From NCBI GenBank assembly GCA_028279655.1, contig JANQNH010000005.1, forward strand, positions 1-64,000: DNA of 64,000 nucleotides. The letters run 5' to 3'. The stretch is from Candidatus Nanoarchaeia archaeon. Its GTDB lineage: Archaea > Nanobdellota > Nanobdellia > Woesearchaeales > JACPBV01. The translations under genes were made by a program, and so were the position numbers. Position 1 is the stretch's first letter; each line of letters starts with the position of its first letter. Below the pieces are notes generated by a model. It saw only the letters and a program-made list of their open reading frames with translations. It was not told the DNA's origin and made no database searches. Shown piece after piece: positions 23,253 through 30,366 of the stretch.

Positions 23253-23382
23253 CCCCGCTTAGTTTAGTGGCTAGAACGCTCCGCTGTAGATAAGTTCATT
23301 GCTTGACCAAATGCATCATGCTTGGAATGAAAAGCAAACAGCTGGTACGGAGAGATCCCTGGTTCAAGTCCGGGAGCGGGGA
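23253..23382 (+). tRNA. tRNA-Tyr(GTA) with anticodon-loop intron (about 23290-23346)
   Basis: Acceptor CCCCGCT/AGCGGGG; anticodon stem CTCCG/CGGAG interrupted by 57 nt; T-arm CCTGG-TTCAAGT-CCGGG. Confidence 0.9.
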
Positions 23383-26609: not shown

Positions 26610-26700
26610 GCCCTGGTAGTGTAGTGGACTATCATGAAGCCCTGTCGATGCTCATTAAAGCAGAACGGCTTCGACCCGCGTTCGAATCGCGGCCAGGGCG
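26610..26700 (+). tRNA. tRNA-Asp(GTC) with 18-nt intron (26648-26665)
   Basis: GCCCTGG/CCAGGGC acceptor, AAGCC/GGCTT anticodon stem, BHB helix CTGT/GCAG with bulges CG^A and AA^C, T-arm CCGCG-TTCGAAT-CGCGG. Confidence 0.93.
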
Positions 26701-26718
26701 TATTAACAAATTTATAAC

Positions 26719-26831
26719 GGGCCCGTAGCTCAGCCTGGTTAGAGCGCCTCACTTTTAATGAGGCGGCCGCGCGTTCGAAAAGAGGGTCTGGCTGTAAAAA
26801 GCAGGATGCTACGAAAGTCGCGTCGGGCCCA
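26719..26831 (+). tRNA. tRNA-Lys(TTT) with T-loop intron (26780-26817)
   Basis: GGGCCCG/CGGGCCC acceptor, intact CCTCA-CTTTTAA-TGAGG anticodon arm, T-stem GCGCG/CGCGT split by 38 extra nt; BHB helix TTCG/CGAA. Confidence 0.92.
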
Positions 26832-26847
26832 CTCAAATTCATAAAAA

Positions 26848-27093
26848 ATGGTTAAGAAAAAATATAACATTCAAGAACATGGTTTAGTTCCTGAACATCT
26901 AAAGTTAAGTGAAAAAGAGGTGAAGGACCTGTTAGAAAGATACCATATTTCTCTAAAAGAATTACCAAAAATCTCAAAAAAGGATCCTGCTATATCTCAT
27001 CTTAACATAAAAGAAGGAGATGTTATAAAGATAATTCGAAAAAGCAAGACAGCATCTGAATCAATCTTCTACAGAGGTGTTATCAATGTATAA
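26848..27093 (+). CDS. rpoH: RNA polymerase subunit H (Rpo5)
   Basis: HGLVPEHLKLSEKEVKDLLERYHISLKELPKISKKDPAI. Confidence 0.95.
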   Translation: MVKKKYNIQEHGLVPEHLKLSEKEVKDLLERYHISLKELPKISKKDPAISHLNIKEGDVIKIIRKSKTASESIFYRGVINV

Positions 27094-28567
27094 ATACTCC
27101 AAGACTCTTATACAGAAGCACTTCAAAGAGCATAGCTTTGTTAATTCAAATATAGAATCCTTCAACAACTTCATAACAGAGGATCTGAAAAGGATAATAG
27201 AAGAGAACAAAGAGATTGTTCCAACGATTCCTCCTCAGAACATTGAGGATTTTAGGATTAAGTTTGACAAAATATGGGTAACAAAGCCTGAGATAACAGA
27301 AGCCGACGGTTCTAAAAGGAACATATATCCTGCAGAAGCAAGGCTAAGAAAACTCACTTATTCTGCACCTACATATATAGAGGTATCTGCTCATATCAAC
27401 GGGGTTCAGAGAGAAAGCTTTACAACCCAGATAGGAAATATTCCAATAATGTTAAAGAGCAAGAACTGTCACTTAAATAGCTTAAGCAAGGAAGAACTTA
27501 TCCAGAAAGGGGAAGATCCAGACGATCCTGGAGGCTACTTCATAATCAACGGTACAGAAAAGGTACTGATTAGTATAGAGGATCTTGCTCCAAACAGGAT
27601 ATTGATAGAGAAGGCATCAGGACCTTCAGAATATATCGGTAAGTTGTTCTCAGAAAGAGGTTCCTTTAAGATTCCACACACCCTTGAGAGACTGAAGGAT
27701 GGGGTATTCTACCTTACTTTTACCAGGGTCAAGAGGATCCCTATCATAGTTATAATAAAAGCATTGGGACTCCTGAAAGACGAAGATCTTGTTAACTTCA
27801 TATCAAAGGACAAGAAATACGACGAAGTACTGATTAACCTGTTTGAGTTTGTAGAGATTAAATCCGAGGAGGAAGCCCTAGACTATATCGCAAAAAGGAT
27901 TGGGATAACCCAGGCTAAAGAGATACGTGTAGAGAGGATGCAGGAGATACTTGATAAGTACTTGCTCCCCCATCTTGGGATAACAAAAGAAGACAGGATC
28001 CAAAAAGCCTACAACCTATGCAAGCTGATTAAGAAATATATGGATGTTGCAAGAGGAGACCTGGAGATAGATGATAAGGATCATTACATGAATAAGAAAC
28101 TTAAGCTTAGCGGAGACCTATTGTCAGACCTCTTTAGGGTAAACCTAAAGGTTCTTGTTGGAGATTTATTATATAACTTCCAGAGGATCGTGAAGCGGGG
28201 AAAATTCCCTTCCATCAAGGTCATAATCAGGGACAAACTTTTAACTCAGAGGATATACTCAAGTATGGCAACAGGCAACTGGGTAGGCGGAAGAAAAGGG
28301 ATTTCTCAGAGAATACAGAGATTAAACTTCCTGGAATCCTTGAGCCATCTGCAAAGGGTTGTTTCACCATTATCTACTTCTCAAGAAAATTTCGAGGCAA
28401 GAGAGCTTCACTGTACCCATCTAGGACGGTTATGCCCTATCGAAACACCAGAAGGAACAAATATCGGGCTAAGGAAGAATCTTTCACTGTTATGCTCTAT
28501 ATCTTCAGAAAGCGATGAGGAAGAGGTATTAAAATCATTGAAATCAATGGGGTTAAAGACAATATGA
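27086..28567 (+). CDS. rpoB2: RNA polymerase subunit B''
   Basis: GYFIINGTEKVLISIEDLAPNR; TPEGTNIGLRKNLSL; start set at MYKYSK. Confidence 0.96.
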   Translation: MYKYSKTLIQKHFKEHSFVNSNIESFNNFITEDLKRIIEENKEIVPTIPPQNIEDFRIKFDKIWVTKPEITEADGSKRNIYPAEARLRKLTYSAPTYIEVSAHINGVQRESFTTQIGNIPIMLKSKNCHLNSLSKEELIQKGEDPDDPGGYFIINGTEKVLISIEDLAPNRILIEKASGPSEYIGKLFSERGSFKIPHTLERLKDGVFYLTFTRVKRIPIIVIIKALGLLKDEDLVNFISKDKKYDEVLINLFEFVEIKSEEEALDYIAKRIGITQAKEIRVERMQEILDKYLLPHLGITKEDRIQKAYNLCKLIKKYMDVARGDLEIDDKDHYMNKKLKLSGDLLSDLFRVNLKVLVGDLLYNFQRIVKRGKFPSIKVIIRDKLLTQRIYSSMATGNWVGGRKGISQRIQRLNFLESLSHLQRVVSPLSTSQENFEARELHCTHLGRLCPIETPEGTNIGLRKNLSLLCSISSESDEEEVLKSLKSMGLKTI

Positions 28568-30366
28568 CAGAAGTATACATAAACTCAAAATTTGCAGGTT
28601 ACATTGATGAGCCAAGATTATTCATAGAGAAGATCAAGGAAGAGAGGAGGAAAAATAAGCTGGATCATAATGTCAATGTATACTACGATACCAAATCAGA
28701 TACTGTTCAGATAGAGCATGGAAAAGGAAGGGCACGAAGACCACTTATAGTAGTCAAGGAATCTCAGCCCTTGCTTACAGAGAAGCATATAAAACAGCTG
28801 GAAAAGGATGAGATATCCTGGTCTGATCTAATCAAGCAGGGCATCATAGAATATATCGACGCTGCAGAGGAAGAGAACTGCTATACAGCATTCTTTGATT
28901 CAGAGCTTACTCCTGAGCATACACACCTGGAGATAACACCTTTATCTATGCTGGGGCTTGCAACCTCTCTTGTCCCTTATGGTAATTTCAATCAATCGAC
29001 AAGACTGAATGCAGGATCCAAGAACCAGAAACAAGCCTTAGGATTCTACGTCTCAAACTTTGCAGTAAGGATGGATATGGATGTAAACCTGCTGCACGAA
29101 CCGCAGATCCCTATAGTCCAGACAATAGTGCATGAGATTTCAGATTACGATAAGCATCCTGCTGGCCAGAACATTGTTGTGGCAATAATGTCATACAAGG
29201 GATATAACATGGAAGATGCTATAATCCTCAACAACGGCTCGATCCAAAGAGGCCTGGCTAGAAACTCTTATTACAGGCCTTCGATAGCTGAAGAGCTGAG
29301 ATATGCAGGAGGTTTAGTGGATGAGGTATCTGTTCCAGATAAGGACGTTAAGGGCTACAAATCTGAAAAGGATTATAGGTTCTTGGAAGGAGACGGGATA
29401 ATATATCCTGAAGCAAAGGTTAAGGAGAGCGATGTTATAATCGGTAAGACCTCCCCACCAAGATTCTTAAGCTCCTTAGATGAATATAACCTGGCTTCCT
29501 CAACAAGAAGGGAAAGTTCAGTGTCTGTTAAACACGGAGAAAAAGGGGTTGTAGACTTTGTTTTAATAACAGAGAACGAAGAAGGGAACAAATTGGTCCA
29601 GGTAAGGGTTAGGGATGAAAGAACTCCAGAAGTAGGGGATAAGTTTACCTCAAGGCACGGCCAGAAAGGAGTCGTAGGATTGATTGTTCCTGAAGGAGAT
29701 CTTCCGTTCTCAGCATCAGGGATAAGGCCTGACCTTATATTTTCACCGCATGGCATTCCTTCAAGGATGACCATATCCCATCTTATTGAGTTGGTAGGTG
29801 GAAAAGTTGGTGCTTTAAATTCACGCTATATCAATGGAACTACATTTGATGCAGAACCAGAAGAGAAGCTTAGAAAAGAACTGCTTGGCCTTGGATTCAG
29901 GGAGAACGGCACAGAGACCTTGTATGATGGAGAGACAGGAGAACAGTACCAGGCAAAGATCTACATAGGAAATATGTATTACCTTAAGCTTAAGCACATG
30001 GTTGCTAACAAACTTCATTCAAGAGCACGTGGTCCTATCCAGCTGCTGACAAGGCAGCCGACAGAAGGAAGGGCAAAGGAAGGAGGCCTTAGGTTAGGAG
30101 AGATGGAAAAAGACACCTTTGTAGCGCACGGTGCATCTCTATTGTTGAAGGAGAGGTTTGACTCTGACAAGACCACTGTTCCTGTATGTGAGGAATGTGG
30201 ACTGATTGCTGTTAGGGATGAGTTCAAGAACAAGAGCTACTGCCCCATCTGCGGGGATAATGCCGAGATTTCTTTCATAGAGATATCCTACGCCTTTAAG
30301 CTTATATTGGATGAGTTTAAATCCCTATGCGTATATCCAAAATTATATTTAAAGAGCAAGTATTAA
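28564..30366 (+). CDS. rpoB1: RNA polymerase subunit B'
   Basis: MSYKGYNMEDAIILN, KFTSRHGQKGVVG, RGPIQLLTRQPTEGRAKEGGLRLGEME. Confidence 0.97.
   Translation: MTEVYINSKFAGYIDEPRLFIEKIKEERRKNKLDHNVNVYYDTKSDTVQIEHGKGRARRPLIVVKESQPLLTEKHIKQLEKDEISWSDLIKQGIIEYIDAAEEENCYTAFFDSELTPEHTHLEITPLSMLGLATSLVPYGNFNQSTRLNAGSKNQKQALGFYVSNFAVRMDMDVNLLHEPQIPIVQTIVHEISDYDKHPAGQNIVVAIMSYKGYNMEDAIILNNGSIQRGLARNSYYRPSIAEELRYAGGLVDEVSVPDKDVKGYKSEKDYRFLEGDGIIYPEAKVKESDVIIGKTSPPRFLSSLDEYNLASSTRRESSVSVKHGEKGVVDFVLITENEEGNKLVQVRVRDERTPEVGDKFTSRHGQKGVVGLIVPEGDLPFSASGIRPDLIFSPHGIPSRMTISHLIELVGGKVGALNSRYINGTTFDAEPEEKLRKELLGLGFRENGTETLYDGETGEQYQAKIYIGNMYYLKLKHMVANKLHSRARGPIQLLTRQPTEGRAKEGGLRLGEMEKDTFVAHGASLLLKERFDSDKTTVPVCEECGLIAVRDEFKNKSYCPICGDNAEISFIEISYAFKLILDEFKSLCVYPKLYLKSKY

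Follow-up and report, generated by a model that had tools for sequence, protein, structure and literature searches.

A predicted bulge-helix-bulge intron in the T-loop of tRNA-Lys(UUU), and T-loop introns across an archaeal order with one alpha4-like splicing endonuclease

Introduction

An intron at position 59/60 of a tRNA is already known from other archaea, as this position is on the published list of archaeal tRNA intron sites (PMC4090602). Rich sources of such non-canonical introns are Crenarchaeota and Nanoarchaeota, with an (alpha-beta)2 splicing endonuclease (EndA) (PMC4090602). Non-canonical introns have been tied to (alpha-beta)2 or epsilon2 EndA (PMC4033280, PMC6379350, PMC12397907), while alpha4 EndA is reported to be narrow, accepting the canonical bulge-helix-bulge (BHB) motif only (PMC4033280, PMC6379350). 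The published rule is therefore that introns outside the anticodon loop go together with an EndA that has either a further subunit or an additional loop. One such loop, the broad-specificity CSL, has 15-18 residues and a conserved Lys near the active site.

The window analysed here is a 64,000-nt stretch of contig JANQNH010000005.1 from a woesearchaeal genome (GCA_028279655.1). Its tRNA-Lys(UUU) gene shares with the 59/60 introns described before (Marck and Grosjean; Sugahara et al.; PMC4090602) the insertion point, a BHB or BHB-like motif and the predicted EndA/RtcB pathway. It differs from the sources listed in PMC4090602 in belonging to a DPANN order (Woesearchaeota) with one alpha4-like EndA. 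A comparable state, with most tRNAs interrupted, often non-canonically and more than once, is described for the Asgard Atabeyarchaeia and Freyarchaeia (PMC11291895), which belong to a different phylum from the archaeon of the window. The literature searched, which left most subscription papers outside its scope, held no account of T-loop introns in Woesearchaeota. What makes the window's intron of interest is how widely such introns occur in the clade, that they do not fit the EndA rule, and that rtcB has putative introns as well.

Results

A 38-nt insertion in the T-loop of tRNA-Lys(UUU)

The gene and the elements of its insertion are as follows.

26719-26831, + strand: tRNA-Lys(UUU) gene, interrupted (from the sequence)
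26719..26779, + strand: 5' exon, positions 1-59, with the T-loop end TTCGAA (from the sequence, and ARAGORN on the spliced form)
26769..26773, + strand: T-stem 5' strand GCGCG, serving as the BHB outer helix, with its partner at 26819-26823 (from the sequence)
26774..26777, + strand: T-loop T54 T55 C56 G57, which forms the 5' side of the 4-bp helix at the centre of the BHB
26778..26780, + strand: 5' bulge AA^A, predicted 5' splice site (from the sequence, by the BHB rule)
26780..26817, + strand: predicted 38-nt BHB intron, position 59/60 (from the sequence, and same-position introns in relatives)
26812..26815, + strand: intron CGAA, 3' strand of the central helix, covarying with position 57 across relatives
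26816..26818, + strand: 3' bulge AG^T, predicted 3' splice site (from the sequence, by the BHB rule)
26818..26831, + strand: 3' exon with T60, T-stem CGCGT, acceptor CGGGCCC and A73 (from the sequence)

The acceptor stem (GGGCCCG/CGGGCCC), D-stem (GCTC/GAGC), anticodon stem (CCTCA/TGAGG) and anticodon loop (CTTTTAA, with UUU) can be read without defect, and the two strands of the T-stem, GCGCG (26769-26773) and CGCGT (26819-26823), are 45 nt apart. When 26780-26817 is removed, the T-loop becomes TTCGAAT, and ARAGORN finds a 75-nt tRNA-Lys(ttt) with a defect-free cloverleaf. The predicted junction is GCGCGTTCGAA joined to TCGCGTCGGGCCC, or TTCGAA joined to TCGCGT. On the unspliced genomic sequence, ARAGORN calls a tRNA at 26718-26792 with its 3' end misplaced, and the Rfam tRNA match covers 26719-26777 only (32 bits).

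The BHB elements are a 4-bp helix, TTCG/CGAA, between two 3-nt bulges, AA^A and AG^T. Of the flanking helices of the canonical hBHBh' form, the outer one is present as the T-stem, but the inner one is weak, with 0 contiguous pairs beside the bulge and an offset hairpin only; the intron is therefore filed as relaxed BHB and is not of the full canonical hBHBh' sub-type. An earlier note on this DNA had put forward the 38-nt intron at 59/60, the three intact arms with a T-stem split by 45 nt, the helix with its two bulges, and the weak distal intron helix of a relaxed motif, and the sequence agrees with it on each of these. Minimum-energy folding of the whole pre-tRNA-Lys did not recover the BHB fold, and no guide-RNA box is evident by eye in the 38 nt.

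Three things expected of a BHB tRNA intron were found here: a cloverleaf that is intact after removal and has a consensus loop, a 4-bp helix with 3-nt bulges, and both a splicing endonuclease (EndA) and a 3'-phosphate ligase (RtcB) encoded in the genome. At a probability of about 0.93, the 38 nt at 26780-26817 are an archaeal BHB intron between positions 59 and 60 of the sole tRNA-Lys(UUU) gene found. The insertion is real, and the splicing predicted from the sequence is very probable.

Gene neighborhood and other tRNAs of the same genome

Three further features of the window bear on the gene's context.

23253..23382, + strand: tRNA, probably tRNA-Tyr(GUA) by sequence, with a long anticodon-loop intron
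26610..26700, + strand: tRNA-Asp(GUC) with an 18-nt anticodon-loop intron, upstream of tRNA-Lys(UUU)
26848..27093, + strand: rpoH-like ORF downstream of tRNA-Lys(UUU), a syntenic anchor

The order Asp-Lys-rpoH is conserved in many relatives. Family, DNA and pattern searches of the archaeon's own 2.07-Mb, ~90%-complete genome found no second tRNA-Lys(UUU). Family and pattern searches, which are not exhaustive, supplied the tRNA set of this genome, in which tRNA-Val(UAC), tRNA-Ile(GAU) and tRNA-Ser(GGA) also have T-loop introns. A probable tRNA-Asn(GUU) (L026:1296-1433, +), read by eye, apparently has two introns in the anticodon arm and a third, of 31 nt, in the T-loop. Thus at least three other tRNAs of this genome, and probably four counting Asn-GUU, carry T-loop introns. 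Further downstream in the window (27077-30366), RNA polymerase subunit B is seemingly encoded in two adjoining ORFs, as a split rpoB.

T-loop introns are common in the order

In a genome of the same family (G003), a 17-nt intron, GTTAAGTAATACGGAAG, lies at the same point of tRNA-Lys(UUU), and in one of another family (G036) a 20-nt intron, ACCAAATATTTGGCCGAAAG, does so. Both differ in sequence from that of the window, and several other relatives are intronless in this gene. By the finder described below or by reading of the sequence, T-loop introns were identified in 14 of 50 tRNA-Lys(UUU) loci, under twelve family labels; these loci are 49 from a strict pattern, which had matches in 49 of the 193 genomes of the order, plus that of G003. 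Of 81 matches to a phylum-wide pattern for the T-arm of tRNA-Asp, 35 contain an intron of 12-30 nt, and all 35 were in the window's order. Because this pattern is biased to that order and to introns of no more than 30 nt, sister orders of the same class were sampled apart. In 21 tRNA-Lys loci from these, the finder recognized 17 genes as tRNA-Lys, and 4 of the 17 have a T-loop intron; the sample also held 2 tRNA-Asp with one. T-loop introns are thus common in the window's order and present in sister orders, and the earlier description of the window's intron as unusual in its genome context does not hold, either for the order or for the archaeon's own tRNA-Val(UAC), Ile(GAU), Ser(GGA) and probably Asn(GUU).

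In a closed, single-contig, 100%-complete genome (G014), ten tRNAs have T-loop introns, all ten ending in GAAAG. Rfam matches only 24 tRNAs in it (L209-L232), ten of them below the cut-off, many due to introns.

The matches in a pattern scan of named genomes are mostly 'Candidatus Woesearchaeota'; Micrarchaeota, Borrarchaeum and some further labels occur in one record each. Outside the order, a record labelled Micrarchaeota (L131) has a T-loop intron with a YGAAAG end, and Borrarchaeum weybense (L149) has a candidate one with the same end and an odd anticodon. A tRNA-Lys of genome G015 (L102) has an intron of ~22 nt in the T-stem, next to 53/54, in addition to one in the anticodon loop.

Pairing and covariation of the splice motif

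The finder requires acceptor, D, anticodon and T stems and makes no use of the BHB motif. Its calls do not arise by chance. It made 85 calls in 61 kb of real sequence from relatives vs. 1 call in 304 kb after dinucleotide shuffling; 32 of the 85 had T-loop introns, in sequence chosen around tRNA-Lys genes. It mislabels anticodons in multi-intron tRNAs ('CTA', 'AGT', 'CGA') and made one 100-nt T-loop call for 'CAT'; all these calls were not counted unless the exon sequence had been read by eye.

In 70 distinct T-loop introns collected without bias to the motif, TTCR was compared with the sixth to third bases counted back from the end of the intron. At this predicted register, four pairs form in 60 introns and three in the other 10; after shuffling of the introns, 1.9 would be expected to reach four pairs. 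When the register was slid by 1-3 nt in a set of 101 T-loop introns, 0-2 were left. Because the pattern of the named-genome scan contained GRAAGTC, the pairing statistics exclude the loci from that scan. The base at position 57 (R57) covaries with its intron partner in the 70-intron set (A57-T 39, A57-C 0, G57-C 15, G57-T 6; Fisher p = 1e-9, which overstates independence, as the introns come from related genomes).

An inner helix of at least 3 pairs is found in 53 of the 101 introns vs. 16 expected. About half of the 101 are therefore near the full canonical motif, and the rest, including that of the window, are not. The insertions are 12-76 nt long, and neither sequence nor length is conserved apart from the splice motif.

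Near-copies of introns in different tRNAs

In the closed genome, the introns of tRNA-Arg(UCG), tRNA-Glu(UUC) and a tRNA with UAU are close copies of one another, with alignment z = 10.0, 6.7 and 6.4. Their partner of R57 tracks the tRNA, as the Arg and Glu genes combine TTCG with CGAAAG, and the UAU tRNA combines TTCA with TGAAAG. In another genome (G017), the 76-nt introns of tRNA-Lys(CUU) and tRNA-Glu(CUC) are identical at 56 of 76 bases. Such near-copies in different tRNAs support copying of introns from T-loop to T-loop by transposition. TTCRA would then act as a standing landing site for mobile introns. Closely similar introns in different tRNAs of one genome are also reported in work of 2010 cited in PMC4090602; here, in contrast to that account, the copies are all at the T-loop, where conserved TTCRA forms half of the motif.

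A single alpha4-like EndA

The window's genome encodes one EndA, of 190 aa (L059), and the next-best match has E = 0.3. EndA is matched in 173 of 193 genomes of the order, nearly all exactly once and at a size of ~185-190 aa, G014 included. Thus no separate structural beta subunit was found in the own genome, and nearly all genomes of the order with a match have a single EndA, although a very divergent beta could escape such searches. The best solved matches are the alpha subunit of N. equitans, best of all, and the alpha4 enzyme of M. jannaschii (1A79); the N. equitans beta subunit is also matched, at E = 8e-13.

There is no CSL in this EndA, as the 10-residue insertion of S. tokodaii 2cv8 (..skpksaee..) has no counterpart, and 20 EndAs of the order likewise lack an insertion at that place (in their alignment the aligned part of the M. 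jannaschii row agrees with 1a79). Nor is there an ASL of the ARMAN-2 kind, since the protein has 190 aa vs. ~390 aa for epsilon2 and the 'yk' insertion of 4fz2 (Tyr160/Lys161) is absent from the alignment. An acidic loop near the C terminus is kept, DEESD here and DADGD in M. jannaschii, whereas the N. equitans alpha subunit has a shorter one. A single catalytic subunit of ~180 aa with such a loop marks the alpha4 type, and this is what was found.

By sequence comparison, the EndA of the window's genome resembles the alpha4 type and has none of the loops associated with broad specificity. It shares with that of M. jannaschii its length, the single gene, conserved motifs of the catalytic region, the acidic loop and the lack of CSL and ASL. 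The M. jannaschii type is reported as narrow, whereas in the lineage studied here introns outside the anticodon loop are numerous, and some of them have no inner helix. The earlier note had held that a T-loop intron needs an EndA of relaxed specificity, a claim that the only EndA found, M. jannaschii-like and without CSL or ASL, leaves unsupported.

Putative introns in rtcB

The rtcB gene of the same genome (L161, G000:C35:112932-114245, - strand) has insertions of 30 nt and 18 nt, with two in-frame TAGs within them and BHB-like folds, at the conserved motifs HFGYG and GFDINCG. The rtcB of G003, from the same family, is uninterrupted (L185), and its HFGYGLPMG and GLCGFDINCG match the predicted product of splicing exactly. 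On its own, the second insertion folds into an 11-bp outer helix, a 3-nt bulge, a 4-bp helix, a 3-nt bulge and a 3-bp inner helix. In other families rtcB is interrupted at the same sites, at both in G074 (L182) and at one each in G124 (L183) and G052 (L186). Recoding of TAG was considered and rejected, as the TAGs lie inside insertions that are absent from the uninterrupted relative. The gene thus appears to be interrupted by two short BHB-like introns, which we regard as putative; RtcB would then be needed to join its own mRNA, and its synthesis would depend on itself. The rtcB of G070 (L184), in another family of the order, appears to be disrupted as well.

In 2020, cbf5 was named as the only earlier example of an archaeal mRNA intron (PMC7714728). 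Compared with the BHB intron in cbf5 mRNA of Crenarchaeota (PMC2738675; PMC7714728), the putative introns here are in another gene, and one that encodes the predicted ligase of its own exons.

Discussion

The motif is supported by the sequence, by covariation and by its distribution among relatives. The T-stem of the pre-tRNA is the outer helix, T54-T55-C56-R57 pair with the YGAA six to three bases before the intron end, and the bulges A58-A59^A and AG^T60 are the predicted splice sites. Cleavage at both bulges would fall to the one EndA of the cell, and RtcB would then join the exons to restore the normal T-loop, TTCGAAT. As nearly every tRNA has TTCRA, any mobile segment ending in YGAAAG could form a spliceable motif there, and T-loop introns may have spread among the tRNAs of the order because TTCRA and YGAAAG together make the splice motif.

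A decayed tRNA-Lys gene with a chance insertion, its function taken by a copy elsewhere, is highly improbable. With an assembly only ~90% complete, a second tRNA-Lys(UUU) could lie in the unsequenced part, but the searches found none, and the core reading of the earlier note, a BHB intron at 59/60 of a working tRNA-Lys(UUU), is supported. Moreover, every stem of the exons is intact, the complementary YGAA and the AG^T of the insertion recur in tens of introns of different sequence, the motif covaries and the Asp-Lys-rpoH order is kept in many relatives, and ten tRNAs of a closed genome with such insertions cannot all be pseudogenes. Retention of the insertion in a mature tRNA that works with an enlarged T-loop is slightly less probable still. 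Ordinary tRNAs require a 7-nt T-loop with T54-A58 for the tertiary fold of the D- and T-loops, whereas the insertion would pair T54-C56 away, and insertions of such varied length are unconserved except in the splice motif.

Removal of a real intron by a heteromeric (alpha-beta)2 EndA, or by one relaxed in some other way, with a second subunit that escaped the searches, is unlikely, though less so than either of these, and it is compatible with our preferred explanation. It would fit the best solved match to the alpha subunit of the N. equitans (alpha-beta)2 enzyme, and divergent beta subunits can evade profile searches. What speaks against our preferred explanation is that the intron has a relaxed motif and the single EndA lacks the loops tied to relaxed substrates, and that the ~90%-complete assembly could omit an EndA partner. 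Against a missed subunit, the own genome has one match, with the next-best at E = 0.3, nearly all matched genomes of the order have one EndA, even that with ten T-loop introns, the acidic loop shortened in the N. equitans alpha subunit is kept, and a beta similar to that of N. equitans should have shown, as that one is matched. Either the alpha4-like EndA is more tolerant than reported, or a divergent partner was missed. As read from the sequences, the intron set of the order argues against a restriction of the homotetramer to canonical BHB. We lean, with some reserve, to the explanation that one alpha4-type EndA without CSL or ASL splices mobile introns that use TTCRA, and that in some genomes, that of the window among them, the rtcB mRNA carries such introns as well, in which case the ligase may control its own synthesis. 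If this is true, a large archaeal order having such introns and an alpha4-like EndA alone would break or refine the published rule.

Standard tRNA finders miss or misplace genes with T-loop introns, as in the closed genome above, so that tRNA sets of DPANN archaea are probably undercounted. Incidentally, insertions of other kinds were seen in the window's genome. Two tRNAs, reading as Pro(UGG) (L017, G000:C35:20538-20647) and Gly(CCC) (L025, G000:C36:6615-6675), have a large D-arm insertion, and a Lys(CUU)-like tRNA (L016, G000:C24:93856-93966) has one or more insertions in the anticodon arm.
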